In this document: piece after piece, positions 8,736 through 23,636 of the stretch
How positions within the stretch are numbered: the stretch's first letter is position 1
How the letters are laid out: every line of letters begins with the position of its first letter
Assembly (NCBI RefSeq): GCF_001202035.1
Contig: NZ_LGHT01000036.1
Coordinates: 1-64,000 of the forward strand
Reading direction: 5' to 3'
Origin: Pseudorhodobacter wandonensis
GTDB lineage: Bacteria > Pseudomonadota > Alphaproteobacteria > Rhodobacterales > Rhodobacteraceae
Length of the DNA stretch: 64,000 nucleotides
Notes under the pieces: model-generated
What the model was told of the DNA's origin: nothing
Seen by the model: the letters and a program-made list of their open reading frames with translations, nothing else
The model's database searches: none
Program-made: the position numbers and the translations under genes

Positions 8736-10274
8736 TTAGACTGAGAGGGGGGGCATCGGCGTGCCGGCGGCGATGACAATATCACCTGCTGCAATCATCA
8801 CAGCCGCCGCTTCCAGATCGGGCGCGAGATAGCGATCTTGGCCCATGGTCGCCACCTCTTGGCGTACACGCGTTACCACGCGTTGCAAGGCGGCGCTTGT
8901 GCGCAATGGCGCGCGGAAATCGATGCCCTGCGCGGCACAAAGCAATTCGACACCCAAAATCCGGTTCAGGTTGTCGATCATTTGCCCCAGACGGCGCGCG
9001 CCATGGGCGGCCATGCTGACGTGATCTTCCTGATTGGCGGATGTCGGCGTGCTGTCGGTGACGCAAGGGTTGGCGAGGTGTTTGTTCTCGCTCATCAAAG
9101 CGGCGGTGGTGACTTCGGCAATCATATAGCCGCTGTTCAGGCCCGGATTGGGCGTCAGGAACGGCGGCAGGTTGAAGCTGAGCACCGGATCGACAATCAG
9201 GGCCACGCGGCGCTGTGCGATGGCGCCGATTTCGGCAATCGCCAGCGCGATCATATCGGCAGCAAAGCCGACGGGTTCGGCGTGGAAATTGCCGCCCGAG
9301 ACAATCATGTCGGCCTCAATCAGCACCAGCGGGTTGTCGGTTGCGGCATTCGCCTCAATCTCTAACGTCCGTGCGGCCATGCGCAAAACATCCATCGCGG
9401 CACCCGTCACCTGCGGCTGGCAACGGATGCAATAGGGGTCTTGGACCCGCGCATCATCGATCATGTGGCTGTCGCGGATTTCAGACCCGTCCAGCAACGC
9501 CCGCATGGTGGCTCCGGCCTCTATCTGGCCTGCATGGCCGCGTAATGCGTGGATTTCGGGCTGCAAAGGTGCGGTTGACCCCATGATCGCATCGGTTGAA
9601 AGCGCCGACGTGACCAGTGCCGCATGCGCCGCGCGCCAGGCGCCGAACAATCCGGCAAGGGCGAAAGCGGTGGAAAACTGCGTGCCGTTGATCAGCGCGA
9701 GGCCCTCTTTCGGGCCTAGTTCGATCGCTGTCAGGCCCGCGGCCGATAGCGCCTTGGCGCCCGGCATTGCCTTGCCGCCAAATTCTGCTTCGCCATGGCC
9801 CATCATTACGGCGGCCATATGTGCCAGCGGGGCAAGGTCGCCCGAGGCACCGACAGAGCCTTGCGCGGGGATCATGGGGGTGACGCCTTTGGCGAGCATT
9901 TCCTCGATCAGCGTCACAATCTCTAGCCGCACGCCGGATGCGCCGCGCCCGAGGCTGAGCAATTTCAACGCCATGAGCAAACGTGCGTGACGGCGCGGGA
10001 TAGCGGGGCCAACGCCGCAGCAATGGGACAAGATTAGATTGCGTTGCAAAGTTGCGGTGTCTTTGCTTGCGATCTTGACCGAGGCGAGTTTGCCAAAGCC
10101 GGTGTTGACGCCGTAAACGGCCTCGGTTCCTGCCACGGCCTTGGCGATGCGTGCATGGGCAAGCGCTATCGCAGGGTGGCAGGCTGGATCAAGCCGCACC
10201 GCGTCTTGGTTCCAGTAGATGCTTTGCAGATCGGCCAAAGTCACTGCGCCAGGCGTAAGGGTAACTGTGGTCAC
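8736..10274 (-). CDS. hutH: Histidine ammonia-lyase
   Basis: HutH deaminates L-histidine to trans-urocanate. The Ala-Ser-Gly triad that cyclises to the MIO prosthetic group is at residues 143–145 within [14 protein letters not shown]. The N-terminal [11 protein letters not shown] segment and the [11 protein letters not shown] segment are also typical. The 512-residue protein starts at a GTG (10274), with GGAGG 8 bp upstream; this start gives the family length and overlaps the hutI stop by four bases (GTGA), which suggests translational coupling. The middle gene of the hutI–hutH–hutU operon. Confidence 0.96.
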
Positions 10275-11482
10275 GCGGAGCCTCCGAAAATGCGGGAATG
10301 AAGGGGGTTGAAGCCGATGCGATAGGCAAGCTCGGCGGGGTGCTGGACGTCCCAGACCGCTAGATCCGCGCGCAGACCAGCTGTGATCGTGCCGCGATCG
10401 GTCAAACCAAGGGCGCGGGCGGTGTTTTGGGTGGCACCGCGTAGGGCTTCCTCGGGTGTCATGCGGAATAGGGTGCAACCCATGTTCAGCGTCAATAGCA
10501 GGGAATTAAGCGGCGACGTGCCCGGGTTGATATCGGTGGCCAGCGCCATCGGCACGCCGTGCTTGCGCAAAAGCGCGATGGGTGGCGCTTGGGTTTCGCG
10601 CAGAGTGTAGAAGGCACCGGGCAGGATGACGGCGATGGTGCCGGCCGCTGCCATGGCCGCTACGCCGTCTTCATCCAGATATTCGATATGATCGGCCGAT
10701 AGGGCACCGTATTGCGCGGCCAGCTTTGCCCCGCCAAGATTCGAGAGTTGCTCGGCATGGAGTTTCACCGGCAAGCCCAATTCGCGTGCCACATCGAAGA
10801 CACGGGCGATTTGGTTCGGTTGAAATGCGATGCCCTCGCAAAACCCGTCTACCGCATCGACCAGACCCTTTGCATGGGCCGCACGCAGGGCGGGGATGCA
10901 CACCTGATCGATATAGAGGTCACTGCGGCCCGAATAGTCTGGAGGTGTTGCATGGGCGCCAAGGAACGTGGTTCGCACCGTAATCGCGCGCTGTGACGCA
11001 ATCGCACGGGCGACGCGCAGCATCCGCAATTCGGTTTCCACATCGAGGCCGTAGCCGGATTTGATTTCTATGCAGGTCACGCCTTCGGCTATCAGCGCAT
11101 CTACGCGGGGCAGGGCGGCGGTCAGTAAGTCAGCCTCGCTCGCGGCGCGGGTGGCCGTGACCGTAGAGATAATGCCGCCGCCTGCGCGGGCAATTTCTTC
11201 ATAGCTGGCCCCGTTCAACCGCATTTCAAATTCCACCGCGCGGTCGCCGCCATGGACAATGTGGCCGTGACAATCGATCAAGCCGGGGGTGACAAGACGG
11301 CCACCAAGGTGCCGGCGCGGCGCGTCACCGTATTTATGGGGAAGATCGCGGGCAGGGCCGACCCAATCGATAACCCCGCCAACCACGGCAATCGCGGCAT
11401 CTTTGATAAGCCCGTAAGGCGCATCCGATTCGCCCATCGTCGCCGCGTTCAAATCAACGAAGACATCGCTTTTCTTGGTCAT
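10271..11482 (-). CDS. hutI: Imidazolonepropionase
   Basis: HutI hydrolyses 4-imidazolone-5-propionate to N-formimino-L-glutamate, the third step of histidine degradation. It belongs to the metal-dependent amidohydrolase superfamily: the HxH metal site is seen in [15 protein letters not shown] near the N-terminus, and other conserved parts are [24 protein letters not shown] and the late [10 protein letters not shown] Asp. About 403 residues from the ATG at 11482; TTG and GTG codons 9–12 bp upstream are alternative starts. It is first of three minus-strand hut genes and is divergent from hutF across an 83-bp gap holding a palindrome. Confidence 0.95.
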
Positions 11483-11533
11483 TTCGGTCACCAATGGTCA
11501 ATTTTTCACTTTTCTAGTATGCGGTAGTGTGCT

Positions 11534-11549
11534 TTATGTCTATACATAA
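11534..11549. promoter_or_regulatory. Candidate HutC operator
   Basis: TTATGTCTATACATAA is a 16-bp inverted repeat (TTATGT–CTAT–ACATAA). It lies in the divergent hutI/hutF gap, 17 bp before the hutF start, where one bound repressor could control both arms. HutC proteins of proteobacteria are known to bind short AT-rich palindromes around a GTNTANAC-like core, which this fits. That it is bound here is inference. Confidence 0.65.
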
Positions 11550-11565
11550 AATAAGGGCCGTCAAA

Positions 11566-12924
11566 ATGATTTTTGCCAAACAAGCCAAACTTTCCACTGG
11601 ATGGGCGCCCAATGTGCGCGTAACGCATGCGAATGGCCGGATCACGGCGATTGCGGTGGGCCAATCACCCGACTCCGCCGACACATGTGTCGACACCTTG
11701 CTGCCAGCGTTGGGGAACCTGCACAGCCATAGCTTTCAGCGCGCGATGGCGGGGATGACCGAATATCGCAAGGCGGGTAAAGACAGCTTTTGGACCTGGC
11801 GCGATCTGATGTATCGGTTCACCGCGAACCTGACGCCCGAACATATAGAGGCGATTGCGGCCTTTGTGTTTCTGGAGATGCAAGAGGCGGGCTATGCCAG
11901 TGTCGGAGAGTTCCACTATTTGCACCATCAGGCGGGCGGTGCGCCTTATGAAGATCTGGGCGAATTGTCGGGCCGTATTGCGGCCGCTGCGGCCAGCACG
12001 GGGATAGGGCTGACCCATCTGCCGGTGCTTTATAGCTATGGCGGGGCGGGGCGGGTGCCGCTTGAGGCGGGCCAAGCGCGGTTTGGCAATTCGGTGGACC
12101 GGTTTAATGCCTTGGTGGCGCGGGCGCGCGAAGCGGTTGCACAGCTGCCTGCCGATTGTCACGTTGGACTCGCGCCGCATTCCTTGCGGGCCACGTCGCC
12201 CGAGGATCTGGCAGCGGTGCTGGCTGCACATGGTACGGGGCCGGTTCATATACATATCGCCGAACAGCCCAAAGAGGTTGCCGATATTCACGCATGGTTG
12301 GGCGCGCGGCCGGTGGAATGGTTGCTGGCCAATGCAGGTGTGACGCCGGATTGGTGCCTGATCCATGCCACCCATATGACGGCAGAAGAAACCATCACTA
12401 TGGCCAAATCTGGCGTGGTGGCGGGGCTTTGCCCGGTGACCGAGGCGAATTTGGGCGATGGGCCCTTTAACGGGCCAAGCTATCTGGCGGCGGGTGGTGC
12501 GTTCGGGGTGGGGTCGGATTCAAACGTGTTAATCTCGCTGACCGAGGAGCTGCGCATTTTGGAATACTCGCAACGTCTGCGCGATGTTGCGCGCAATGTG
12601 ATGGTGGTTGGCGAAGGATCGGTAGGCGAAACCCTGTATATGGGGGCGGCAAAAGGCGGCGCACAGGCCTTGGGACGTGGTGCTGGCGAAATTGCCGTGG
12701 GTGCCTTGGCAGATGTGGTTGCGATTGATAGCAACGCGCCGTCGCTTTGCGCGTTGCATCAAGATCAGATTTTGGACGGGTTGGTGTTTGCGTCAAAAGA
12801 TACTGTCGTGACTGATGTTTGGTCGGCCGGTCGCCATATGGTACAGTCGGGCCGGCACATCAAACGCGATGAGATCACCCGCGGCTATAAAGCTGCGTTG
12901 CAAAGTTTGATGGCGGCGATGTGA
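11566..12924 (+). CDS. hutF: Formimidoylglutamate deiminase
   Basis: HutF hydrolyses N-formimino-L-glutamate to N-formyl-L-glutamate and ammonia, the first half of the two-step HutF/HutG branch of histidine degradation. It is an amidohydrolase-superfamily enzyme: metal ligands appear in LGNLHSHSFQRAMAG and in FGVGSDSNVLIS, with HIAEQPKEV and LIHATHMTAEE in between. The ATG at 11566 is preferred (452 residues): the earlier in-frame ATG codons lie before or inside the operator palindrome, and AAGGG lies 10 bp before 11566. hutG, needed to remove the formyl group, is not in the window. Confidence 0.94.
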   Translation: MIFAKQAKLSTGWAPNVRVTHANGRITAIAVGQSPDSADTCVDTLLPALGNLHSHSFQRAMAGMTEYRKAGKDSFWTWRDLMYRFTANLTPEHIEAIAAFVFLEMQEAGYASVGEFHYLHHQAGGAPYEDLGELSGRIAAAAASTGIGLTHLPVLYSYGGAGRVPLEAGQARFGNSVDRFNALVARAREAVAQLPADCHVGLAPHSLRATSPEDLAAVLAAHGTGPVHIHIAEQPKEVADIHAWLGARPVEWLLANAGVTPDWCLIHATHMTAEETITMAKSGVVAGLCPVTEANLGDGPFNGPSYLAAGGAFGVGSDSNVLISLTEELRILEYSQRLRDVARNVMVVGEGSVGETLYMGAAKGGAQALGRGAGEIAVGALADVVAIDSNAPSLCALHQDQILDGLVFASKDTVVTDVWSAGRHMVQSGRHIKRDEITRGYKAALQSLMAAM

Positions 12925-13074: not shown

Positions 13075-14007
13075 CTAACGCGGCACATGTGTGCCAGGCA
13101 GCCCTTTGTTTTGCAGGTGGTCTGCGACATGCGCAAAGAATGCCTGCACAATGCCGGAACGATGCGTTGTTTGCTTTGTCGCCAAGCCCAGAATGACAGG
13201 CCGAACCGCCCCTGTCAGTGGCACAATCGCCAGTTTCTCGCCATCCGGTGCTATATCCGAGCGTGTGCGCATGTTCACCAGCCCAAAGCCAAAGCCATTG
13301 GCAACAAGACTGCGCGCCATAAAGATATCAGAGGTGCGTTCGGCAATATTCGGGCGAAAGCCGGCGTTGTGAAACATAGACAGGAAATAGTCGCGGCTAA
13401 GCGGTAGGTCGAGCAGGACCATCGGCTCGTCTTGCAAATCTGCCAAGGTCAAAGAGGCCTGTTTTGCTTTTGGGTGGTCCTTGGCCAGCATGACATATGG
13501 CGGCAAGGAGATCAGGTTTTCAAATGCGACATCTTTCGGGATTTCAATGTCATAAGTGATTGCTACGTCAATTTCGGCTTGCCCGAGCATCCGCAGCAGA
13601 TCGACCTGACTGCCTTCTTTCAACGTCACCAGAACTTCGGGGTGGCGCTGCTCAAAGCTGCGGCGAAGTTGTGCGCTGATGATGGGCGCAACGGTCGAAA
13701 GCGCGCCAATCGCAATTGGTCCGCGGGCCGTTTCGACAATATCGCTGGCAAGGTCATTCAAACCGTTGGCGCTGAACAGAATGTGCTTGGCCTCATTGAA
13801 CACTCTGCGTCCGCCGGGGGTAAGCGTCAGCCCTTGCGCATGGTGGCGCACGAACAGCTGCATCCCCAAATCGGTTTCAAGCTGGCTGATCGCAGAAGAG
13901 ATCGATGGCGATGACACGTTGACGCGCTGGGCGGCCAAAGCAATGGTTCCGGCTTCGCCCACGGCGACCAGATATTCCAACTGTCTGAATGAAAAGCGTA
14001 AAGGCAT
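13075..14007 (-). CDS. LysR-family transcriptional regulator
   Basis: A 310-residue LysR-type regulator. Residues about 5–65 form the winged helix-turn-helix (FRQLEYLVAVGEAGTIALAAQRVNVS and SSISSAISQLE are the recognition segments), and about 90–295 the periplasmic-binding-protein-like inducer domain. The ATG at 14007 begins the canonical FSFRQLEYLV opening; upstream in-frame codons have atypical content. It is the last gene of a minus-strand set with DUF1028, RidA-like and Rieske oxygenase genes, 38 bp after DUF1028, and probably controls that set. Being co-directional and downstream rather than divergent is less usual for LysR genes. The inducer is unknown. Confidence 0.88.
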   Translation of the reverse strand: MPLRFSFRQLEYLVAVGEAGTIALAAQRVNVSSPSISSAISQLETDLGMQLFVRHHAQGLTLTPGGRRVFNEAKHILFSANGLNDLASDIVETARGPIAIGALSTVAPIISAQLRRSFEQRHPEVLVTLKEGSQVDLLRMLGQAEIDVAITYDIEIPKDVAFENLISLPPYVMLAKDHPKAKQASLTLADLQDEPMVLLDLPLSRDYFLSMFHNAGFRPNIAERTSDIFMARSLVANGFGFGLVNMRTRSDIAPDGEKLAIVPLTGAVRPVILGLATKQTTHRSGIVQAFFAHVADHLQNKGLPGTHVPR

Positions 14008-14045
14008 GTCGAAATATGACGTGGCGCGCGGTTCGGGGCAAGCCC

Positions 14046-14720
14046 CTACGCGTCGCCGGGCACGCCATAAGAGGGCGCCTCGCGCGGGTCGAGCGCGCGT
14101 TGCACATAGGCCGCAAGCTGGGGTTTGTAGATGCCCCAAGCCACGGCCACTGCCTCTATCGGGCAATCATCGGTCCAATCGCAGCGCAGGTCGGCCACAG
14201 GCCATTGTACTTTGTCGCAGAGCTGCATGCCTGCCGAATGGATCGGCCCTGCCTCGCCGCCTGCGGCAAGGCCCGCCCGCATTGCCGCAATCAGGCGGTC
14301 ACCCAAATGGCCCTTGGCCTGCATAAACCCGTCGACAATGGCCTGTGGCACGTCAGGGTTTGCCAGCAGATTGCCTGCAGAAATGACATTTTCGCCTGCC
14401 GCCTGTGTCCAGATGCCCAAGGATTTGGGGCCGGAATGAATGGCCGTCCGCCCGCGCGCATCAATTGCCAGAACCTGCCGGTATTCGATGAAACGCCCTT
14501 GGGCACGAACCCCTGCGATGGCCTCGGGTGCTGACATGCCGCCCTGCATCAGATCGAGCGCGAACGGCCCCAAGGTCGGGTCGGTGATGTTCTGGCTGGA
14601 CACTGCGCCCACGCCCGCGCGGGTATAGGAACACCGCGCGGCGACGGCGGGCGACGACGAGGCAATGGCAGTGCCGAACATGCCCGTATCAGCGCAGCGG
14701 GCGACAAGAGAAAACGTCAT
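14046..14720 (-). CDS. DUF1028-family protein (Ntn-hydrolase-like)
   Basis: A 224-residue protein of the DUF1028 family, whose fold resembles N-terminal nucleophile hydrolases. The opening MTFSLVARCADTGMFGTAIAS and the VGAVSSQN stretch are characteristic. The biochemical role of the family is not established; members often accompany amidase or deaminase genes in catabolic clusters. It overlaps the preceding RidA-like gene by four bases (ATGA), so the two are almost certainly co-translated. No signal peptide is seen. Confidence 0.82.
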   Translation of the reverse strand: MTFSLVARCADTGMFGTAIASSSPAVAARCSYTRAGVGAVSSQNITDPTLGPFALDLMQGGMSAPEAIAGVRAQGRFIEYRQVLAIDARGRTAIHSGPKSLGIWTQAAGENVISAGNLLANPDVPQAIVDGFMQAKGHLGDRLIAAMRAGLAAGGEAGPIHSAGMQLCDKVQWPVADLRCDWTDDCPIEAVAVAWGIYKPQLAAYVQRALDPREAPSYGVPGDA

Positions 14721-15133
14721 GCCGGGATTACCGCTGTGCCATCAATTTCAACCAGCCATTCCGGCCGCGCCAAGGCTTGCACGACCAAACCGGTGGAAAC
14801 CGGATGCACGCCTTTGATGTATTCGCCCATCGTGCGGTAAACCGCCTCGCGGTGGCGCACGTCAGTGATATAGACCACAACCTTTACCAGATGCGCCATC
14901 TCGCCACCGGCTTCTTCGATCAGCTGCTTGATGTTTTGCATAACCTTATGGGTTTGTTCAGCCGGATCATGGCTTGCGATATTCTTGAAATCATCAAGGT
15001 TTTGCGGGCACTGACCGCGCAGATAAACCGTTTTGCCGCCTTGGGTCACAACGGCTTGGCACAGATCATTGTCAAGGTTTTGCTCGGGGTAGGTGTCTTT
15101 GGTGTTGAATTTGCGAAGGCGGGTATGGGGCAT
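14717..15133 (-). CDS. RidA/YjgF-family protein without the canonical Arg
   Basis: A 138-residue member of the YjgF/YER057c/UK114 (Rid) family, which form trimers with clefts at subunit interfaces. Classic RidA proteins hydrolyse reactive enamines/imines through an Arg in a P-A-R motif near the C-terminus. Here the aligned segment reads HPVSTGLVV with Ser113 where the Arg is expected, followed by the conserved WLVEIDGTAV. This places it with the Rid groups that lack the deaminase Arg, so a different reaction or ligand is likely. The gene follows the Rieske oxygenase by 11 bp and overlaps DUF1028, suggesting a step in the same pathway. Confidence 0.85.
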   Translation of the reverse strand: MPHTRLRKFNTKDTYPEQNLDNDLCQAVVTQGGKTVYLRGQCPQNLDDFKNIASHDPAEQTHKVMQNIKQLIEEAGGEMAHLVKVVVYITDVRHREAVYRTMGEYIKGVHPVSTGLVVQALARPEWLVEIDGTAVIPA

Positions 15134-15144
15134 GATTGGTCCTG

Positions 15145-16272
15145 CTATTGGCCTGCGGCCTGAATGCGCGCATTGATGTATTGCGCAAAATCATAGTTCG
15201 GGCGTTCCAGGTGCGAAAGATGCCCCGGTGCTGCGGATTGTGACTTGAGCCCTTGATATACCTTTTCCGTGCAGCCCTTGTCTTCGACATTCACATCATC
15301 GAGCAAAGTTTTCAGCTGTTTGAAATTGTCCTGCGCGTCGGGGTCGTTTGCATAGTCGTTTGACATACCGCCGCCAAACCCGATTTTAACTTGGCCAACC
15401 CCATGTGGATGCAGGGTCAGATACCAAAAATAGCCTGGGGTCAGCGTGATGAGCAAACTTGGATAGATTGCCAACAGAAAGGTGGTGCGCCGCCGCTCGC
15501 CCTTTAAGCGCGTGTTGCTGGCGTGGGCCATTGCAATTCTTAACGAGTCGTCTTTCAGGATGGTGTGATAGTTGAATGCAGCCTCACCCGGCGGGCAGAC
15601 CATCTCATGCAGCTTGGACAGGCCGCCGATTGTACCGGCATGACAGACCGGCAGGTGATAGCTTTCCATGAAATTCTCGGCCAGAACCTTCCAATTTGTA
15701 TTCCAGATATGGGTTTCAAAAAAGGTTTCGGAATAGTTGGCCATGTCGTAGTCGCCCACAAGGTCTGCGACCTTTGCCAATTGCACTGCCACAGGCGGCA
15801 CATCGGGGTTCAGGGTCACGAAAACCCAACCTAGCCACTCTTCGCACCGAATTTGCGGCAGGCTGTAGTCGGTTTTGCAAAATCCCTCATTCTGATCCAT
15901 CGCAGGGGCGCCGCGCAGCGAGCCATCCAGATTGTAGGTCCAGGCGTGATAGGGGCAGACAATGCTGCGGGTGTTGCCACGACCTTCCAGCAGTGTAGAC
16001 ATCCGGTGCCGGCAGACATTCGACATTGCCTTTAGCGCACCTTGTTTGTCCCGCAAAACGATGATCGGCTGACCGGCCAAATCAAGCGTCACATAATCAC
16101 CGGCGTTTGCCAGCGCATCGGCCCGCCCGGCACAGAACCATTCACGGGCAAAAATCGCCGAGGTCTCACGTTCAAGGAACGCCTCGGAGGTATAGACAGA
16201 CGGCGGCATCGCGCGGGCGCGCTCAAAAGGCACTAAGGTGTTTTGACGAAGATCTTCGGCAGCATCTTTCAT
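15145..16272 (-). CDS. Rieske-type ring-hydroxylating oxygenase, alpha subunit
   Basis: A 375-residue oxygenase component that would hydroxylate an aromatic ring or cleave a methylamine-type substrate using electrons from a separate reductase. The Rieske [2Fe-2S] ligands are Cys87, His89, Cys106 and His109 (CRHR…CPYH). The mononuclear iron site is the segment NFMESYHLPVCH with His206 and His211 and Glu203 in the bridging position; a distal acidic ligand is expected near the C-terminus. The ATG at 16272 has AAGGAA 7 bp upstream. No ferredoxin or reductase gene lies nearby, so electrons must come from elsewhere. It leads an operon with RidA-like, DUF1028 and LysR genes. Substrate is not deducible; related subunits act on aromatic acids and on quaternary amines. 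Confidence 0.9.
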   Translation of the reverse strand: MKDAAEDLRQNTLVPFERARAMPPSVYTSEAFLERETSAIFAREWFCAGRADALANAGDYVTLDLAGQPIIVLRDKQGALKAMSNVCRHRMSTLLEGRGNTRSIVCPYHAWTYNLDGSLRGAPAMDQNEGFCKTDYSLPQIRCEEWLGWVFVTLNPDVPPVAVQLAKVADLVGDYDMANYSETFFETHIWNTNWKVLAENFMESYHLPVCHAGTIGGLSKLHEMVCPPGEAAFNYHTILKDDSLRIAMAHASNTRLKGERRRTTFLLAIYPSLLITLTPGYFWYLTLHPHGVGQVKIGFGGGMSNDYANDPDAQDNFKQLKTLLDDVNVEDKGCTEKVYQGLKSQSAAPGHLSHLERPNYDFAQYINARIQAAGQ

Positions 16273-16576
16273 GTTGGTTCCTTTTGATGAGGCGGGGAAC
16301 AAGGCAGATTGGCTATAATTTGGCATCGTCCTGCGTTGTTTGGTCAAGGATCAATCCAGAGGTTCAGACCGCGCGCGCGGTTTTGGCCGCGCGGTTTTGT
16401 CCAGTAAATCCAGACCCCCTCAGTTTCACAAAAAACCGGCTGGATAAAGCATGCACAATCATACACTCGCTTTGGCAAAATCTAATCAATCGAGGTCATG
16501 GCCAGACACATCCTGTGTCGCATGGAGGTCCGAAATCCAATGCCCCGTCAAACGAGGTAAGGCGGCGCCCGCGCGG
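16273..16576. other. Intergenic region upstream of the Rieske operon
   Basis: This 304-bp gap precedes the Rieske operon and follows the GntR-type gene; both are on the minus strand. It has a GC-rich hairpin (CCGCGCG-rich arms at 16369–16380 and 16387–16394) and an AT-rich part around 16315–16325 that may hold the operon promoter. No gene is seen. Confidence 0.4.
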
Positions 16577-17236
16577 TCAGAGATTGGTCAGTTTTCCCAC
16601 CAGATATTCGCCGGTACGTCGATAGTGGTTTAGCAAGGCTGCAGAGGCCGCATCTGCATCGCGGCGAATGACCGCGTTCAAGATAGACTCGTGCTCGGCT
16701 GGAATGTCGCGCTTTTTATAGTCAGGCCCGTCAGCTGCCAGATAGCGATAGCGAATGTTCAGATCATACAGCTGGCTGCAAAACCGCGCCAACATCGGCG
16801 AGGATGCGTTGTCCAAAAGGGTCATATGGAACAGCTTGTGTGCCGCTTCGAACCTTGTGGGGTCCTGGGCTGCCGCGCGAGTCATTCTGTGGTGCGACAG
16901 CACGAGGCGATCTTCCCAATCCGATGTGGCGGCGGTGATCGACTGACGCAGGGCCATATCATCCAGCGTACAGCGCAATGAGAGAATTTCGTCAAAATTG
17001 GCGATGCTGGCGGGGGCGGCCCGAAAGCCGCGCTGATCTATCCGTTCCACCAACATGTCCGAGGTCAGCAGGCTTAGTGCCTCGCGTACGGGTGAGGCGC
17101 CGGTGGCCAGCAATGCGCGCAGATCTTCGATCTTCAGCTTTTTGCCTGCGGGCAGCGCACCGGTCAAAATCATGTTGCGCAAGGTAATATATGCCATATG
17201 CGTGGCGGAACCATCTTTGCCGTCTATCACATTCAT
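16577..17236 (-). CDS. GntR-family regulator, FCD (FadR) type
   Basis: A 219-residue regulator with an N-terminal winged helix-turn-helix (about 14–75, ATGASPVREALSLLTSDMLVERIDQRGF being the recognition region) and an all-helical FCD ligand domain (about 85–205) carrying the metal-binding histidines expected in this subgroup (HKLFHMTLLDN and an HESILNA segment). FCD regulators typically sense small carboxylic acids and repress adjacent catabolic and transport genes. It sits between the two arms of the catabolic island and 21 bp after the YciI-like gene, so it is likely the repressor acting on the divergent promoter at about 17650–17730. Confidence 0.88.
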   Translation of the reverse strand: MNVIDGKDGSATHMAYITLRNMILTGALPAGKKLKIEDLRALLATGASPVREALSLLTSDMLVERIDQRGFRAAPASIANFDEILSLRCTLDDMALRQSITAATSDWEDRLVLSHHRMTRAAAQDPTRFEAAHKLFHMTLLDNASSPMLARFCSQLYDLNIRYRYLAADGPDYKKRDIPAEHESILNAVIRRDADAASAALLNHYRRTGEYLVGKLTNL

Positions 17237-17257
17237 GATGCTTTCACTTCACTTGGT

Positions 17258-17644
17258 TTAGGTCAGAGACAGTTTTTTCGTTGATAACCCGACCTGCAAC
17301 GAAAAAGAACCCTCATTGATCATCCAGCGCCGCATCGAATAGGTGCGTGCGCCACAAAGATGCATCGGGTCTGCTTTGGCCAATGCATGTGCTGCCTCCA
17401 GGCTTTCGGCGCGGTAGATGATCAGACCCATTCCCTGCATATGCTCACCGGTTTCATCCGACATCGGCCCCGCAAAGGCCAGCGATCCGTTGCCTTCCAG
17501 TTCGGCCTGATAGGCCAGATGGGCGGGCAGGGCGGATTTTACATCTGCTGGGGTTTTTGCAGGAATACTTGTTGCAACATAAAGCTCTAGCGCCAGTGCG
17601 CCTCGCGATTTCGCTTCGTTCTTATAGTCATTCCACGCGACCAT
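17258..17644 (-). CDS. YciI-like protein
   Basis: A 128-residue protein with the ferredoxin-like YciI/muconolactone-isomerase-related fold, recognised by the LAYQAELEGNGSLAFAGPM segment (the conserved His-Leu… Gly-…Gly-Pro pattern) and the AHALAKADPMHLCGARTYSMRRWMI region. Members are small dimeric enzymes with a conserved His; some are dehydrochlorinases, most are uncharacterised. It is divergent from the FAH-family gene across a 92-bp promoter region and is followed by the GntR regulator. Exact reaction unknown. Confidence 0.75.
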   Translation of the reverse strand: MVAWNDYKNEAKSRGALALELYVATSIPAKTPADVKSALPAHLAYQAELEGNGSLAFAGPMSDETGEHMQGMGLIIYRAESLEAAHALAKADPMHLCGARTYSMRRWMINEGSFSLQVGLSTKKLSLT

Positions 17645-17666
17645 GGCCTTGCCTCCCGAAAATAAT

Positions 17667-17709
17667 AATATCGATATTTATTGACTTTGTGAAATATAGT
17701 AGGCAGAAT
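17667..17709 (+). promoter_or_regulatory. Divergent promoter with palindromic candidate operator
   Basis: A perfect 12-bp palindrome AATATCGATATT lies at 17667–17678. Directly after it TTGACT (17681–17686) and CAGAAT (17704–17709), spaced by 17 bp, resemble sigma-70 −35/−10 elements for the plus-strand FAH operon starting at 17737. The neighbouring GntR regulator is the natural candidate to bind. All functional claims here are inference from sequence and position. Confidence 0.45.
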
Positions 17710-17736
17710 TTTAGTGTACTGACAAGGATGTTGAGC

Positions 17737-18618
17737 ATGAAATTTCTGGTGGGCAAAGATTTGGACGGCACCGCTGTCTATGTCGTGAATGGTGAAAATG
17801 CTGTGAATGTAACGGCATTGAATGCAGCGGTCGGAACCGACCTGATGGGGGTTATTGCGAACCCTGCGTTGATCGAATCGCTGGCAACAAAGATCGCTGC
17901 GGCCCAAAGCGTGCCGGTTGCTTCGCTGACGCCCGCGTTGCCTGTGGCCAAGCCTGAAACGATCATTTGCCTTGGGTTGAACTATACCGATCACATCAAA
18001 GAGGGGGGGTATGATATCCCCGATTACCCCGCATTGTTCATGCGCGGCAAGAATTCGGTCATGGCGGCCGGCGCGCCATTGGTGCGGCCAAGCTGTTCGG
18101 AAAAGCTGGATTACGAAGCAGAGCTGATGGTTATCATCGGCAAGGGGGGGCGCCATATTGCCGAGGCTGATGCTTTGGGGCATGTCTTTGGGTATACGGT
18201 GTTCAACGATGGTTCTGTGCGGGACTATCAGCGCAAGACCCACCAATGGACCCCCGGCAAGAACTTTGACAATACCGGCGCGATTGGCCCGTTTGTGGTG
18301 ACTGCCGACGACCTGCCCGCAGGTGCGGCGGGGCTGAAAATTGAAAGCCGCGTGGGCAGCGAGATTTTGCAATCGTCGAACACCGCCAATATGATCTGGT
18401 CTGTCGCGCGGGCCATTGCGATTATTTCAGAATATACCACGCTGGAACCGGGCGATATGATCGCGATGGGCACCCCGCCAGGTGTTGGCCATGCGAAAAA
18501 GCCCAACCCGCGCTGGCTCATTCCCGGTGAAGTTGTTGATATTGAAATCGAGCGCATCGGCATTTGTTCAAGCCCGATCGTTGACGAAGTTGATTTCGAC
18601 GCGAAGGTTGTAGCCTGA
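17737..18618 (+). CDS. Fumarylacetoacetate hydrolase-family protein
   Basis: A 293-residue FAH-superfamily protein, a family of metal-dependent hydrolases, decarboxylases and isomerases acting on beta-diketo or acylpyruvate-type intermediates of aromatic breakdown. The core begins near residue 75 (IICLGLNYTDHIKE, His86), with metal ligands Glu127 and Glu129 (YEAEL) and Asp158 (NDGS) and Lys175 (PGKNFD). The N-terminal 70 residues are the usual variable cap. The ATG at 17737 is chosen because AAGG lies 10 bp upstream. Its stop overlaps the next start (TGATG), so it is coupled to the nitroreductase. It is likely a late step in the island's pathway. Confidence 0.88.
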   Translation: MKFLVGKDLDGTAVYVVNGENAVNVTALNAAVGTDLMGVIANPALIESLATKIAAAQSVPVASLTPALPVAKPETIICLGLNYTDHIKEGGYDIPDYPALFMRGKNSVMAAGAPLVRPSCSEKLDYEAELMVIIGKGGRHIAEADALGHVFGYTVFNDGSVRDYQRKTHQWTPGKNFDNTGAIGPFVVTADDLPAGAAGLKIESRVGSEILQSSNTANMIWSVARAIAIISEYTTLEPGDMIAMGTPPGVGHAKKPNPRWLIPGEVVDIEIERIGICSSPIVDEVDFDAKVVA

Positions 18619-19283
18619 TGAATGCGCCAACTGGAAAGGCCCTAGAGGCCGTACGTGCGGAAGCACAAGAAAACCATCGCGAATTGCGGTCGCGGATAGA
18701 TCGCTTGTCCGATGATGCGATTGACCTGATCTTGCGCGAGGCGCGGTCACATTATGCCTGGACAGACCGGCCCATCCCGGACGCGCTGTTGCAAGAGCTG
18801 TATGACATAACCATCAGCGGACCGACCAGCATGAACACTTTGCCTGCGCGCTTTGTGTTTGTGAAATCAGCCGAGGGTAAGGCGCGTCTGGCAAAGTCGT
18901 TAAAGCCACAGAACGTGCCAAAGATGATGGGCGCCCCGATCACCGTTATTGTCGCCTATGATCGGGAGTTCTGGAAGGAACTGCCGTTCCTGTTCCCGCA
19001 TGATGACCGCAGGCATCTGTTCGAGGGCAAACCCGAGCATAGTGCCGAGACTGCCTTTCGCAATGGCACGCTGCAGGGTGCCTATTTGATGATGGCGGCG
19101 CGGGCACTGGGGCTGGATGTGGGCGCGATGTCGGGCTTTTCAAATCAGATCGTCGACGACGAGTTTTTCAAAGGCACCAGCCTGAAATCCAATTTCCTGT
19201 GCAACATCGGTTATGCGGATGAAACGGCGCTGTTCCAGAAACTGCCGCGTTTCAGTTTCGAGCAAGCCTGCACAGTTGTTTAG
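18618..19283 (+). CDS. RutE-like nitroreductase-family flavoprotein
   Basis: A 221-residue FMN-dependent nitroreductase-family protein. Its sequence follows RutE of the pyrimidine (rut) pathway closely in layout: an Asp-Ala-rich N-terminal helix, SGPTSMNTLPARFVFV, the VIVAYDREFWKELPFLFPH region, and NGTLQGAYLMMAARALGLDVGAMSGF. RutE reduces malonic semialdehyde to 3-hydroxypropionate. No rutA or rutB homologue is present here, so the real substrate may be another semialdehyde, or a quinone or nitroaromatic compound in the island's pathway. It is coupled to the FAH gene before it and followed by OsmC after 9 bp. Confidence 0.82.
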   Translation: MNAPTGKALEAVRAEAQENHRELRSRIDRLSDDAIDLILREARSHYAWTDRPIPDALLQELYDITISGPTSMNTLPARFVFVKSAEGKARLAKSLKPQNVPKMMGAPITVIVAYDREFWKELPFLFPHDDRRHLFEGKPEHSAETAFRNGTLQGAYLMMAARALGLDVGAMSGFSNQIVDDEFFKGTSLKSNFLCNIGYADETALFQKLPRFSFEQACTVV

Positions 19284-19292
19284 GGGGCGAAT

Positions 19293-19754
19293 ATGGCGAT
19301 CAAGATGAAAACCGTGGTGACCTACCGCACCAAAGCGGCCTGCCCAACCCATGCGCGCACCGAAATTCCACTGCGAGATTTGACGGTGGTGGTTGATGAA
19401 CCGCTGGAACGTGGCGGGACCAATCTGGGGGCCACACCGACAGAAATGGCGCTGGCGGCCTTGATTGCCTGCACCAATGTCATTGGCCACAAGAACGCCA
19501 AGCGTTTGGGGGTTGATTTGGGGGAAATCACCATCGACGCGGACTGCAAGTTTGATCGGCGCGGCGTGTTGATGGAGGAAGAGATCGACGTGCCTTTCCC
19601 CGAGATCACGTTGACCGTCGCCTGCACTGGCCCTGCAACAGCAGCGCAGCTTGTGGATGTCGGGGCTGAGACTGCCAAGTATTGCGCCATCGCAAAGCTG
19701 TTTACGGCTGCAGGCACGGCCCTGACGGTGAATTGGGTAAAGGTCGAAAGCTAA
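19293..19754 (+). CDS. OsmC-family protein
   Basis: A 153-residue protein of the OsmC/Ohr superfamily, thiol-dependent peroxidases that detoxify organic hydroperoxides. The two conserved cysteines are present at Cys60 (MALAALIACTNVIGH) and Cys131 (ETAKYCAIAKLF). The residues around them match the YhfA/OsmC-like branch rather than Ohr. It sits inside the catabolic operon between the nitroreductase and the TRAP transporter, where it might protect against reactive intermediates. Which peroxide is reduced, if any, is not shown. Confidence 0.82.
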   Translation: MAIKMKTVVTYRTKAACPTHARTEIPLRDLTVVVDEPLERGGTNLGATPTEMALAALIACTNVIGHKNAKRLGVDLGEITIDADCKFDRRGVLMEEEIDVPFPEITLTVACTGPATAAQLVDVGAETAKYCAIAKLFTAAGTALTVNWVKVES

Positions 19755-19799
19755 ACCTTAATAACAGGCCATATGGCCACTATCTGGGAGGATATAGAA

Positions 19800-20873
19800 A
19801 TGATGAATTGGACCAAACGCAGCCTGATCGGCGCAGTCTTGGTGGCGATGACAGCGATGCCTGTTGCCGCGCAAGAGAAAATCCGTGCGGTTGTTATCGA
19901 TGGCTATCCTGATCGCTCGCTCTGGGTGCGGGAATTCAGCAATTTCTTTATTCCCGAGGTTGATCGCCGTCTTGCCGAAAGCGGCAAATACGTCATGGAC
20001 TGGCAAGAAAACTATGGCGGCTCGATTGTAAAACCCAAAGGTGTGCTCGAGGGTATTCAGCTGGGGCTGGGTGATATTGGTATTGTCACCACGATTTTCC
20101 ATTCGTCAAAGCTGCCGAGCCAAGGCCTTGCTGCGGTCACGCCGTTCGTATCGTCAGATGCCCGCGCAGTTGCCAAGGCGATTGATGAAATCGCACGTGA
20201 ATTTCCAACGATGCAGAATGAATTTGCCGCGCAGAACCAAGTGTATCTGGCGACAGGCGTCGTGCTGGATAGCTATCAGGTCTTTTCTGCCAAGGAAGTC
20301 TCTAAGGTTTCGGATCTTGAAGGGCTAAAGGTTGCCGGTGCGGGGATGAACCTACGCTATCTGGAAGGGATCAAGGATGCTGCCGGTGTGGTTGGTGGTT
20401 TGACCGATTTCTATAACATGCTGCAAACCGGTTTGGTCGATGCCGCACTGCTGTGGCCCGAAGCGGCCGCAACTTTCAAAATCTCGGAAGTGGCACCCTA
20501 TATGCTTAAGGCCGATTTGGGCGCTGTGAACTCAAAAACCGTCACCGTTAACGCCGATTACTGGAATGCTTTGCCGGATGAGGTGAAAGACGTTCTGAAG
20601 GCTGTGGCCATTGATTACCGTGACCATCTTGCCGGTCTTGCCATGGATATTGCCGCGAAATCCGAGGCGGATTACGTTGCTGCGGGTGGCAAGATTGTCG
20701 TGCTGTCGGACGAAGACCGCGCTGCCTGGGCCAATGCCATGCCAAACATAGCGCAAGAGCTGGCGACAACGCTGAACGCAGCGGGCGAGCCGGGGACAGC
20801 GATGCTGGATGCCTATCTTGCCAAGTTGGCAGCCGATGGTTTCACCGGCGCGCGTGACTGGTCCAAGCCGTAA
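19800..20873 (+). CDS. TRAP transporter substrate-binding protein, DctP family
   Basis: A 357-residue periplasmic binding protein with a signal peptide (residues 1–25, ending AMPVAAQE). It delivers the ligand to the DctQ/DctM membrane pair encoded directly downstream. The DctP fold is indicated by GGSIVKPKGVLEGIQLGLGDIGIV near the N-terminus and the NMLQTGLVDAALLWPEAA stretch. The usual carboxylate-binding Arg region (GLKVAGAGMNLRYLEGI) is present with Arg in the later part. The ATG at 19800 has GGAGG 8 bp upstream. Ligand unknown; aromatic or other organic acids are typical of the family. Confidence 0.9.
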   Translation: MMNWTKRSLIGAVLVAMTAMPVAAQEKIRAVVIDGYPDRSLWVREFSNFFIPEVDRRLAESGKYVMDWQENYGGSIVKPKGVLEGIQLGLGDIGIVTTIFHSSKLPSQGLAAVTPFVSSDARAVAKAIDEIAREFPTMQNEFAAQNQVYLATGVVLDSYQVFSAKEVSKVSDLEGLKVAGAGMNLRYLEGIKDAAGVVGGLTDFYNMLQTGLVDAALLWPEAAATFKISEVAPYMLKADLGAVNSKTVTVNADYWNALPDEVKDVLKAVAIDYRDHLAGLAMDIAAKSEADYVAAGGKIVVLSDEDRAAWANAMPNIAQELATTLNAAGEPGTAMLDAYLAKLAADGFTGARDWSKP

Positions 20874-20902
20874 ACCTGCGCTGACCCGAGAGAGGAAGAC
20901 TT

Positions 20903-21454
20903 ATGCTAAAGCACATGCTGGTTGGCCTGTCTCGGGTCGCCAATTCCATTGCGATTGCTGCCAATGCCGCGGGCACCTTAATGGTGCTGGTTCTGGTGGC
21001 TATCCTGAATGTCGATGTGATCGCGCGCGGCGTTTTTCATGCACCGATAAAGGGCACTTATGAAATAGTGCAATTCTCGGTCGTGATGATTGTGTTCTTG
21101 CAGCTGGCTGATGTGGTACGCGTCGATCGGCTGACGCGATCGGACGGGTTTTTGAATGTGCTGCATGCAAGGCATCCCCGTTTAACGGCCAATACCCGGC
21201 GCATCATCAACGCGGTATCGGCGATCTTTATGGGTCTGATAGCCTACATCATGTTTCCCGAATTCTTGCACATGTGGAACACCCAAGACTATTTCGGCGT
21301 GCCGGGCCTGTTCACTCTGCCTTGGTGGCCGGTCAAGCTGGTCATTGCCTTGGGGACGGCTCTGTCTTGTCTGTTGTTCGTAATCAAAGTCATCACTGCG
21401 CAAGACCGGCCTCAACTGATCCGCGCCCCAGAACATGACGAGCCAAAGCTATGA
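20903..21454 (+). CDS. TRAP transporter small membrane subunit, DctQ family
   Basis: A 183-residue integral membrane protein with four predicted transmembrane segments (about 20–40, 58–76, 97–117, 140–163) as in DctQ. It pairs with the large DctM permease, whose start overlaps its stop by four bases (ATGA), and with the DctP protein before it. The start ATG follows GAGAGGAAG. It drives secondary, sodium-dependent uptake of the ligand. Substrate not deducible. Confidence 0.88.
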   Translation: MLKHMLVGLSRVANSIAIAANAAGTLMVLVLVAILNVDVIARGVFHAPIKGTYEIVQFSVVMIVFLQLADVVRVDRLTRSDGFLNVLHARHPRLTANTRRIINAVSAIFMGLIAYIMFPEFLHMWNTQDYFGVPGLFTLPWWPVKLVIALGTALSCLLFVIKVITAQDRPQLIRAPEHDEPKL

Positions 21455-22758
21455 GCCCTATTGAAATTGGCCTGATCTCGGTCATCGCGATTATCTTTTT
21501 GATTTATTCTGGCGTCTACATTCCGGTTGCGCTGGGCGTGGTATCGTTCGTTTCGATCTGGATTTTGCGCGACAACTTCACGCTGGCGCTGAACCTGCTG
21601 AAAATCGCGGTGGGTGACAGCGCGATGGAATATTCCTTTGCGACAATCCCGCTGTTCACCTTTATGGGGCTTGTCGTCTCCAAGGCGGGGTTGGGCAAAG
21701 ATATCTATGAAGTGATGACGATGCGTTTTCGCCGCGTAAAAGGCGGGATCGGCATGGCCACGGTGGGTGCGAACGCGGTGTTTGCTGCGGTTACAGGGTC
21801 GTCCATCGCTTCGGCATCGGTGTTTACCAAAGTGTCGGTGCCGCAGATGATCGCGCAGGATTACAACCCGCGTTTTGCCGTGGGTGTGGTTGCGGGCAGC
21901 TCGGTTCTGGGGATGATCATTCCACCCTCGGCGATGCTGATCGTCTATTCTTTTGTGACCGAGCAATCCGTCGGCGATATGTTTCTTGCAGGCGTTATTC
22001 CCGGCATCATGTTGGCCGTCGCCTATGTTGCTGCGATCTGGTTCATGGCGCGCTATTTCCCGAATTTCGTCGGTGGCCGTGTTGTCGAAGACAGCGAATG
22101 GATGTCGGGGCGTGAGATCGCGTCGAAAACCCTGCCAACACTTGGCCTGATTACAGTCGTTCTGGGTGGCATCTATACCGGCTGGCTATCGGCGGTAGAG
22201 GCGGGGGCCACAGGGGCGCTGGTTGCGCTGCTGATCGCTTTGGTGCGCCGGTCAATGTCGGTGAAAGCATTTTGGGATGCGTTGCTGGAAACCGGCCATA
22301 TCACGGCCTCGATCCTGTTCCTGATTACCGCCGCTTCAATCTATAGCCGGATGCTTGGCATGGCCGGCTTGCCAAACCAGCTTCAGGATTTGCTGGCGGG
22401 CAATGCGGCGTCGTTCTGGGTGGTAATGTTCCTCTATGTGCTGCTGATGCTGTTTCTCGGTACACTGCTGGATACTGCCTCGATCATCTTGATTGTTGTT
22501 CCGTTGTTCCTGCCAATGGTCGAGGCGATGAACCTGTCGCTGATCTGGTTCGGTATCATCACGGTCGTTGGCGCCGAAATCGGGTTGCTGACCCCGCCGC
22601 TTGGCATTTCCTGTTTTGTCATCAAATCCACGCTGAACGATGACCGCATCTCGTTGAAAGACGTGTTCATGGGCGCGTTGCCCTTTGCCTTTGTCATGCT
22701 GATTGTGCTGGTCATTCTGATCGCCTTCCCAAGCCTTAGCCTTGCCCTTTTGAACTAG
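21451..22758 (+). CDS. TRAP transporter large permease, DctM family
   Basis: A 435-residue permease with about twelve transmembrane segments, the ion-coupled transport subunit of the TRAP system. Typical DctM features are VTGSSIASASVFTKVSVPQM, GSSVLGMIIPPSAMLIVYS (Pro-rich re-entrant loop), GATGALVAL, and the late VGAEIGLLTPPLGISCFVIK. It is translationally coupled to DctQ and followed after 11 bp by the intradiol dioxygenase, so uptake and ring cleavage share a transcript. Confidence 0.93.
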   Translation: MSPIEIGLISVIAIIFLIYSGVYIPVALGVVSFVSIWILRDNFTLALNLLKIAVGDSAMEYSFATIPLFTFMGLVVSKAGLGKDIYEVMTMRFRRVKGGIGMATVGANAVFAAVTGSSIASASVFTKVSVPQMIAQDYNPRFAVGVVAGSSVLGMIIPPSAMLIVYSFVTEQSVGDMFLAGVIPGIMLAVAYVAAIWFMARYFPNFVGGRVVEDSEWMSGREIASKTLPTLGLITVVLGGIYTGWLSAVEAGATGALVALLIALVRRSMSVKAFWDALLETGHITASILFLITAASIYSRMLGMAGLPNQLQDLLAGNAASFWVVMFLYVLLMLFLGTLLDTASIILIVVPLFLPMVEAMNLSLIWFGIITVVGAEIGLLTPPLGISCFVIKSTLNDDRISLKDVFMGALPFAFVMLIVLVILIAFPSLSLALLN

Positions 22759-22769
22759 GAGTTTAGCCC

Positions 22770-23636
22770 ATGCGCAACGTCACCGTCGACAATATCACCG
22801 AGGTCTTCGCCGCCTATTTCGGCAAGGATACCGACCCCCGCACCCGCGAGGTTCTTGTGGCCTTGGCGCGCCATATTCACGATTTCGCACGCGAGGTGAA
22901 CCTGACCCATTATGAATGGCGCAAAGGTTTGGCGATGCTGGAACATGCAGGCCGGATTACCACGCCGGAACGCAATGAATTTGTGCTGTTTTCCGATGTT
23001 TTAGGCCTGTCGTCGCTGGTGGATATGATGCATTCCAATCCTGCTGCCACGTCTTCGTCGGTGCTGGGGCCATTCCATGTGTCTAACCCGCCGCCATTGG
23101 AAATGGGCGGCGATATGCGCCGCGATTACGGCGGTACGGTACTGCTGGTCGAGGGCCAGGTGCGCGGCACCGATGGCGAGGCGATTCCACATGCCAAAAT
23201 CGACATTTGGCAAACTGCGCCGAATGGTATGTATTCCAGCCAAGACCCCGATCAGGATATCCATTCCTTCCACGGGCTGATGACCGCTGACGAGACCGGT
23301 CATTTCCGTTTTACCACGGTGCGGCCGGTTGAATATACGGTGCCCAGTGATGGCCCCGTGGGCGAGTTGCTGGATGCAGCAGGCCGCCACCCATGGCGCC
23401 CGTCACACCTGCATTACATCGTCACAGCCCCCGGTTATCGCACGCTCGTGACCGAGATTTTCCCTGACGATGACCCCTATCTTGACCAAGACACTGTGTT
23501 TGGCGTGCGCGATGATCTGGTGATGACCTATCACAAAAAGCCAAGCAGTGATTTCCCCGAAGGCATGGCGTTGTCGGGCAAGGTGAGTGAACCTTATCTG
23601 CACGTGAGATTTGATGTGATCTTGTCTTTGGCATAA
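22770..23636 (+). CDS. Intradiol ring-cleavage dioxygenase (hydroxyquinol/catechol type)
   Basis: A 288-residue Fe(III) intradiol dioxygenase, which opens a catechol or hydroxyquinol ring between its two hydroxyls. An N-terminal helical dimerisation domain (1–100) precedes the catalytic beta-sandwich. Ligands are Tyr155 (NGMYSSQD), Tyr189 (VEYTVP), His213 and His215 (RPSHLHYI). Spacing and neighbouring residues are closest to hydroxyquinol 1,2-dioxygenases, which have the same Tyr-Tyr-His-His order at nearly the same positions. Maleylacetate reductase, the usual next enzyme for hydroxyquinol, is not in the window. It ends the plus-strand operon of the island; the ATG at 22770 has AGGAG 8 bp upstream. 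Confidence 0.9.
   Translation: MRNVTVDNITEVFAAYFGKDTDPRTREVLVALARHIHDFAREVNLTHYEWRKGLAMLEHAGRITTPERNEFVLFSDVLGLSSLVDMMHSNPAATSSSVLGPFHVSNPPPLEMGGDMRRDYGGTVLLVEGQVRGTDGEAIPHAKIDIWQTAPNGMYSSQDPDQDIHSFHGLMTADETGHFRFTTVRPVEYTVPSDGPVGELLDAAGRHPWRPSHLHYIVTAPGYRTLVTEIFPDDDPYLDQDTVFGVRDDLVMTYHKKPSSDFPEGMALSGKVSEPYLHVRFDVILSLA

Follow-up and report, generated by a model that had tools for sequence, protein, structure and literature searches.

The window analyzed here, a stretch of 64,000 nucleotides of Pseudorhodobacter wandonensis DNA (contig NZ_LGHT01000036.1, positions 1 to 64,000), carries between positions 13075 and 23636 a set of 13 genes that is likelier to represent two independent catabolic modules meeting in this genome than the single island described in an earlier note, in which import, hydroxylation and ring cleavage were linked. 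Module A (13075-16347) consists of the genes for a LysR-type regulator, a DUF1028 protein, a Rid-family protein and a Rieske oxygenase. Module B (16577-23636) encodes a GntR regulator, a YciI-like protein, an FAH-superfamily enzyme, a RutE-like reductase, an OsmC-like protein, a TRAP transporter (DctPQM) and an intradiol dioxygenase. All 13 genes named in that note were found where it had placed them, as open frames with Pfam/NCBIfam matches. Our reading, to which we assign a probability of about 0.55, combines the separation of the two modules with ring opening by module B and cleavage of the opened product toward malonate by the FAH enzyme or, in other lineages, by an HMGL-type enzyme.

The Rieske oxygenase and the intradiol dioxygenase each served as a separate query. 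Among 295 genomes of one family, 40 held a dioxygenase match of at least 50% identity and were taken as module-B genomes; G301 and G067, in which the gene was split or partial (both at least 50%, both with malonyl-CoA decarboxylase, MCD), and G248 (49%, with a stop) were left out. At G301:C1:668622-670998 the dioxygenase gene was seen as two matches approximately 1.5 kb apart, as if interrupted by an insertion. Sixty-eight genomes were counted for module A, with G068 (Rieske 40%) excluded; at most six candidate places per genome were scored in the Rieske search, so absences are soft. Both proteins co-occurred in 14 of the 295 genomes versus 9.2 expected (p = 0.07), and 13 of these 14 held them on different contigs, the two being side by side only in the window's genome.

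The surroundings of the two genes were compared in several sets of loci. Around the dioxygenase, neither Rid nor DUF1028 was found in any of 80 named loci (L098-L177, the best 80 of 296 confirmed relatives) or in any of 31 other loci (30 stretches, L065-L094, and one Pacificitalea plasmid); the two sets share genomes and their counts are kept apart. The module-A loci comprised 16 stretches (L011-L026, one of them a second copy in the window's genome) and six plasmid loci (L058-L063), L064 (Rieske 41%) being excluded, and none of the 21 outside the window's genome contained the dioxygenase, FAH or RutE gene around the Rieske relative. The separate conservation of both modules speaks against one integrated island, which we rejected on these data, and the proposed link of hydroxylation to ring cleavage is not supported: the two arms travel apart, so unrelated substrates, which the earlier note had named among the findings that would refute it, are the likelier state. 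Both regulators of the earlier description are present and are divided between the modules, GntR with YciI belonging to module B and LysR with Rid and DUF1028 to module A. The gene content does support a region for catabolism that includes import and ring cleavage, and the gene set matches no described pathway among the searchable open-licence papers.

Module B forms a conserved operon of its own. The genes for YciI, RutE, DctP, DctM and the dioxygenase occurred together in 71 of the 80 named loci (several of the remainder being short contigs) and in 27 of the 31 others, and the gene order is not a matter of chance. YciI and usually GntR are read one way, and FAH, RutE, OsmC, DctPQM and the dioxygenase the other; OsmC was present in 56 of the 80. 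According to the record titles, the hosts include Rhodobacterales, Labrenzia/Roseibium, Cohaesibacter, Granulosicoccaceae and Leucothrix, and the host genera include Ruegeria, Shimia, Yoonia, Tateyamaria and Pelagimonas. Apart from the operon and the sought genes, no neighbour cluster was seen in more than 10 of the 80 named loci, the neighbours being mostly not named by the search.

Some loci differed in their surroundings. Six of them (L126, L127, L151, L168, L170 and L175; Roseibium, Labrenzia and Ruegeria by record title) had a common neighbouring cluster of cupin-sized, short-chain dehydrogenase/reductase-like and 3-hydroxyacyl-CoA-dehydrogenase-like proteins with ATP-binding cassette (ABC) transporter genes, as named from reading the sequences. 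Genes for a TAXI-type TRAP transporter lay near the dioxygenase at L131 50-4481, L083 1036-5926, L167 1311-4885 and L123 3-812. The short contigs L131 (6.5 kb) and L123 (3.3 kb) each held the TAXI-type transporter gene, FAH and the dioxygenase, with FAH directly adjoining the dioxygenase and neither RutE nor DctPQM between them; L131 also held a DesA/LigM-like demethylase. The same demethylase type, a TAXI transporter and the dioxygenase were present in L083.

The best solved matches of the window's dioxygenase were PnpC (3n9t), hydroxyquinol 1,2-dioxygenase (1tmx) and 6-chlorohydroxyquinol dioxygenase (8r2x), with the catechol dioxygenases far behind, so that its assignment to the hydroxyquinol-type intradiol enzymes is well supported by sequence. 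Residues Y155, Y189, H213 and H215, which we take to be the iron ligands, were invariant across 11 aligned dioxygenases including the window's, and the motifs around them matched in 79, 78 and 80 of the 80 named loci. For the YciI protein, comparison by sequence gave no solved relative; the model of it (mean pLDDT 87) came closest to HI0828, then to TftG and then to ClcF. TftG is a 5-chloro-2-hydroxyhydroquinone dehydrochlorinase and thus acts on a chlorinated trihydroxybenzene. The RutE-like protein scored 263 bits with NF003768 (malonic semialdehyde reductase/RutE; cut-off 152) and was 50-52% identical to E. coli RutE, its closest PDB match being the FMN oxidoreductase IstO (7vqk). If our reading is right, such proteins should not be called catechol dioxygenase or malonic semialdehyde reductase by default.

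A lead to the chemistry came from an exchange of enzymes. The solved relatives of the FAH protein were HpcE 1gtt (the best), 8sky and the diketo-deoxyrhamnonate hydrolase 8gsr. A second type of operon lacked FAH and carried an HMGL/isopropylmalate-synthase-like protein. Among the 40 module-B genomes FAH was found in 23, HMGL in 15 (two matches, in G021 and G190, being partial), both in none and neither in G028 and G282; this exclusion has p = 3e-9 when calculated with no correction for kinship. The named loci gave the same picture, with FAH in 57, HMGL in 11, both in none and neither in 12. In a tree of 95 dioxygenases, built by a quick method with Shimodaira-Hasegawa-like approximate likelihood ratio (SH-aLRT) support only and with the 12 named loci having neither gene left unlabelled, the FAH/HMGL label changed 10 times, at least six changes being forced by well-supported branches. 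The HMGL alignment retained HDATLRDGEQ, HTHN and GNGLGERTGN, which are presumably typical of the acyl-CoA-dependent members. The simplest reading is that FAH and HMGL both cut the same ring-opened acid. Since one step seems to be served by two folds unrelated to each other, the repeated exchange is a good starting point for working out the chemistry. The HMGL half of this reading is the weaker one: the HMGL/isopropylmalate-synthase family joins acyl-CoA to 2-oxo acids, and we know of no CoA-dependent cleavage of such an acid by an HMGL-type enzyme.

What happens to the product is suggested by the genes that accompany the operon. The classical hydroxyquinol route needs a maleylacetate reductase. 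At 45% identity or more this enzyme was missing in 36 of the 40 module-B genomes; as the earlier note had observed, it is absent from the 13-gene stretch itself, and the best match in the whole genome reached only 29%. In the remaining four (G174, G282, G233 and G186) it was found at 45-52%, each time on one contig with a second intradiol gene (39-41% identical). MCD, on the other hand, was detected in 38 of the 40 module-B genomes versus 75 of the 255 others (p = 6e-16 in a test that ignores shared ancestry), the calls in G021 and G282 being partial matches. A malonyl-CoA synthase (MCS) homologue was present in 36 of the 40, a count by homology that has no background figure from the other genomes. 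Both genes are adjacent in the window's genome (C44:258048-260359). MCD was near 47 of the 80 named loci and MCS, counted with a 50% identity filter, near 39. The co-occurrence of MCD and MCS with the operon that a malonate-releasing route leads one to expect was therefore found.

The two types of operon differed in this respect too. Among the named loci, MCS lay near 39 of the 57 with FAH and near none of the 11 with HMGL, and MCD near 36 FAH loci, seven HMGL loci and four of the 12 with neither. Genome-wide, MCS was present in all 23 FAH genomes and missing in four of the 15 HMGL genomes, all 15 of which had an MCD match. The confinement of MCS loss to HMGL-type genomes agrees with malonate being set free in another form there. 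As a combination, an intradiol route ending in malonate appears new, all the enzyme families being known.

We propose that DctPQM imports a polyhydroxylated benzenoid, that the RutE-like flavoprotein would keep the ring reduced, as a hydroquinone, and that the YciI/TftG-like protein may catalyse an elimination or a tautomerization, acting either on the ring or on the opened product. The intradiol dioxygenase would open the ring between two adjacent hydroxyls, after which FAH would cut the opened six-carbon diacid with water, yielding malonate and a C3 acid. In the other lineages HMGL, in the place of FAH, would use a CoA thioester and give malonyl-CoA and a C3 acid. MCS and MCD, of which the genomic association was observed directly, would then turn malonate into acetyl-CoA. 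The resemblance of YciI to TftG and the adjacency of FAH and dioxygenase in L123 and L131 speak for this scheme. Hydrolysis of the FAH type requires a 1,3-dicarbonyl. Release of malonate from an intradiol product consequently demands the chain HOOC-CO-CH2-CO-CH2-COOH or its enol, and hence 1,2,3,5-tetrahydroxybenzene as the ring; by deduction, this is the only simple chemistry we found that gives an acylpyruvase-cleavable intradiol product leading to malonate. We tentatively suggest the sequence 1,2,3,5-tetrahydroxybenzene, 2,4-dihydroxymuconate (equal to malonylpyruvate), then malonate and pyruvate, with the substrate and the products less secure than the direction of the route. Doubtful, and placed lower still, is the full picture of a bacterial 1,2,3,5-tetrahydroxybenzene pathway in marine bacteria exposed to seaweed, in which FAH yields malonate and pyruvate or HMGL with CoA yields malonyl-CoA directly.

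A natural source would then be tetrahydroxybenzene and its units in brown-algal phlorotannins. If the proposal is true, both the bacterial pathway and the HMGL reaction to malonyl-CoA would be new, half of the ring would go through malonate, and roseobacters would have a route to brown-algal or other polyhydroxylated phenolics. There is circumstantial support: the accessible part of one source lists a tetrahydroxybenzene, with the positions unstated, among the annotated phenolics of Fucales (PMC13412289), and in the available text of another, tetrahydroxybenzene units like those of fuhalols would account for neutral losses seen in phlorotannins of Ascophyllum (PMC7551814).

Several observations weigh against the proposed route. 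No hydroxylase that could make tetrahydroxybenzene is found among the operon genes, so the compound would have to be imported ready-made or produced by unlinked genes, and TRAP importers usually carry acids, which tetrahydroxybenzene is not. Some loci are atypical, namely L131, L123 and L083 as described above. The DesA/LigM-like demethylase was not enriched (8 of 40 module-B versus 36 of 255 other genomes, p = 0.34), and the window's genome yielded none among the at most five candidate places scored per genome; a methoxylated substrate entering through this enzyme, considered because of L131 and L083, was rejected for these two reasons. In L083 a frame resembling alpha/beta hydrolases (named by reading the sequence) and a CoA transferase stand in the place of FAH. 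Two module-B genomes, G028 and G104, had no MCD, and 18 of the 57 FAH loci had neither MCS nor MCD nearby, some of them being short contigs. The fold match of YciI is only moderate (query TM-scores of approximately 0.5). The FAH/HMGL label was clustered on the dioxygenase tree (10 changes versus a mean of 14.8 in shuffles, with 0 of 500 as low); kinship thus plays a part and the p-value of the exclusion overstates the case. Finally, the leucine of VLGPF, which replaces phenylalanine, was dropped as a mark of a fourth hydroxyl: 8r2v and 8r2w have this leucine as well, the latter being a named hydroxyquinol 1,2-dioxygenase, so that it says nothing for such a group.

Of the alternatives, an ordinary hydroxyquinol pathway survives best and is still unlikely. 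Maleylacetate would be formed, the RutE-like protein would replace maleylacetate reductase, and FAH and MCD would be accessory. The closeness of the dioxygenase to hydroxyquinol 1,2-dioxygenases, the resemblance of YciI to TftG and the annotation of Cupriavidus necator N-1, in which two YciI genes accompany those for an intradiol dioxygenase and a maleylacetate reductase, all agree with it, but it leaves the FAH/HMGL exchange and the MCD association unexplained, the classical reductase is missing from the great majority of module-B genomes as counted above, and we know of no RutE that reduces such a C=C bond.

Slightly poorer are the prospects of the view that the MCS and MCD genes found close to module B are for ordinary malonate utilization, presumably as a MatAB-like set tied to the operon by niche or regulation, with FAH and HMGL yielding no malonate. 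The second TRAP set (matP2) carried by some loci and the FAH loci devoid of both genes nearby are in line with it. The strength of the genome-wide MCD association and the loss of MCS only in HMGL-type genomes (4 of 40), which suits a changed release form of malonate, argue the other way.

Improbable, too, is degradation of a halogenated or methoxylated hydroquinone, with YciI as a TftG-like dehydrohalogenase and RutE as a quinone reductase: the YciI model has TftG and ClcF among its best fold matches and a syringate/vanillate O-demethylase relative lies near the dioxygenase in L131 and L083, but no dehalogenating monooxygenase was found among the 13 proteins, and the demethylase shows the distribution reported above. 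The least probable option, a single pathway in which the Rieske oxygenase hydroxylates the imported aromatic before the dioxygenase opens it, can point to the adjacency of the modules in this one genome and to a co-occurrence slightly above expectation, and founders on their conservation apart, on the lack of significance of that excess and on the position of a relative of module A's flavoprotein partner on another contig (C26:187943).

The coordinates of the 13 genes are collected in Table 1. For LysR, Rieske and FAH, the likely starts lie inside the mechanical open reading frames (ORFs). The set is flanked by hutH/hutI/hutF at the left and by an acyl-CoA carboxylase beta subunit gene at the right. 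The G+C content is 0.568 in module A, 0.552 in module B and 0.571 in the window, and by composition there is thus no strongly foreign island. A palindrome, AATATCGATATT, at window positions 17667-17678 in the divergent YciI/FAH promoter region is a possible GntR operator.

Table 1. Genes of modules A and B in the window, with strands and family assignments.
Feature	Module	Position	Strand	Family and remarks
LysR-type regulator	A	13075..14007	-	PF00126/PF03466; mechanical ORF reaches 14166, likely start 14007
DUF1028 protein	A	14046..14720	-	PF06267; likely hydrolase
Rid-family protein	A	14717..15133	-	PF01042; likely imine/enamine hydrolase
Rieske oxygenase alpha subunit	A	15145..16326	-	PF00355+PF00848; start 16326 or 16272
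GntR-FCD regulator	B	16577..17236	-	PF00392+PF07729; co-travels with module B
YciI-like protein	B	17258..17644	-	PF03795; divergent from FAH
FAH-superfamily enzyme	B	17737..18618	+	PF01557; start 17728 or 17737; putative C-C hydrolase
RutE-like FMN reductase	B	18618..19283	+	NF003768 above cut-off
OsmC-like protein (optional)	B	19293..19754	+	PF02566
TRAP solute-binding protein DctP	B	19773..20873	+	PF03480
TRAP small permease DctQ	B	20903..21454	+	PF04290
TRAP large permease DctM	B	21451..22758	+	PF06808
Intradiol ring-cleavage dioxygenase, hydroxyquinol 1,2-dioxygenase type	B	22770..23636	+	PF00775+PF04444

Module A is a separate route, which most likely serves to monooxygenate or N-dealkylate a betaine-like or N-heterocyclic acid. 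By sequence, its Rieske oxygenase resembles glycine-betaine/carnitine monooxygenases: GbcA was the best NCBIfam model, yet at 145 bits versus an equivalog cut-off of 670, and the closest solved carnitine monooxygenase was 6y8j. Rid and DUF1028 occurred together with the Rieske gene in 10 of the 21 loci outside the window's genome, and may process imine or amide intermediates. The Rid protein scored 58 bits with TIGR00004 (cut-off 106) and 43 bits with the RutC model (cut-off 169); the only solved relative of the DUF1028 protein was 2imh, a hypothetical protein. The hint of the earlier note at a nitrogen-bearing substrate fits module A and not module B. Neighbours in several named records included an NAD(P)/FAD oxidoreductase, an ArgE-like deacetylase, LysR regulators and ABC transporters, and in Pseudosulfitobacter a 78% identical LysR adjoined the same module-A genes. 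Contig C26 of the window's genome holds a 62% relative of the module-A flavoprotein (C26:187943) and a 53% relative of the ArgE-like protein, so the remainder of the route may lie there. Homarine as the substrate is only a possible lead, for which no catabolic gene set was found in the searched open-licence papers, including the accessible parts of PMC9723723 and PMC9038784.

No electron-transfer partner for the oxygenase lies inside the 13-gene stretch, as had been noted; a possible one, a reductase with FAD_binding_6, NAD_binding_1 and Fer2 domains, is encoded on another contig of the same genome (L011:11438-12556). The surroundings of the second Rieske gene there (L011 8890-13590) contain a VanA-type oxygenase, a ferredoxin-reductase-type protein, an aminotransferase and an FAD-linked oxidase, which possibly form a set for demethylation of a histidine derivative and also offer the window's Rieske oxygenase a candidate source of electrons. 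The genome has two hut sets (window 6443-12677 and C14, L178 3623-11595) with 68-75% DNA identity, each near a Rieske gene of one and the same clade (proteins 80% identical). As hutH was missing from all 21 other module-A loci, a Hut link of module A was not relied on.

Among known systems, GbcA/CntA monooxygenases are the best likeness of the module-A oxygenase, but as far as we know their systems have no Rid, DUF1028, flavoprotein or ArgE, unlike module A. The Rut pyrimidine pathway shares the RutE family reductase, above the NCBIfam cut-off. It differs in the Rid protein, which falls well short of the RutC cut-off and is a member of module A; RutA, RutB, RutD, RutF and RutG were not among the NCBIfam matches listed for ten proteins (DctPQM not scanned, and the LysR list limited to 25 matches). 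For the catechol branch of the beta-ketoadipate pathway, in contrast to L096, no muconate cycloisomerase or muconolactone isomerase was found among the 13 proteins, the other neighbours being not all named. Homoprotocatechuate (Hpa)/gentisate-type pathways also place an FAH-fold enzyme beside a ring-cleavage enzyme, in keeping with HpcE 1gtt as the best solved relative, but to our knowledge those FAH enzymes follow extradiol or gentisate cleavage, whereas the partner in module B is intradiol.

The hydroxyquinol (1,2,4-benzenetriol) pathway is like module B in the dioxygenase sequence, which is that of the PnpC/1tmx type, and in the YciI-type partner with a TftG-like fold; it differs in that module B has FAH, or HMGL, with malonyl-CoA enzymes and mostly no maleylacetate reductase. 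By annotation, a cluster on a plasmid of Cupriavidus necator N-1 (L095 892-9876), with an intradiol dioxygenase, two YciI, maleylacetate reductase, citryl-CoA lyase and an AMP-binding ligase, is another uncommon lower pathway. No description of the module-B gene set was found among the hits examined in the open-licence literature, and the accessible parts of PMC7247547 and PMC13039779 held nothing decisive on it.

The last system for comparison is fungal. Martins et al. (2024) reportedly described a fungal central pathway through 1,2,3,5-tetrahydroxybenzene, and module B would share this central ring intermediate if our guess at its substrate is right. No DUF3500 match was found among the 13 window proteins, the genome as a whole being not searched. 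In the available text of PMC13094099 the compound is presented as a central aromatic intermediate of fungi, and a DUF3500 protein is proposed as the fungal ring opener, with 5-hydroxydienelactone as the product, in that of PMC12388069. If true, an operon of marine bacteria, with its dioxygenase in 40 of the 295 genomes, would open a central aromatic intermediate so far described as fungal, and would do so not by a DUF3500 protein, as in the fungal pathway (PMC12388069), but by an intradiol dioxygenase.

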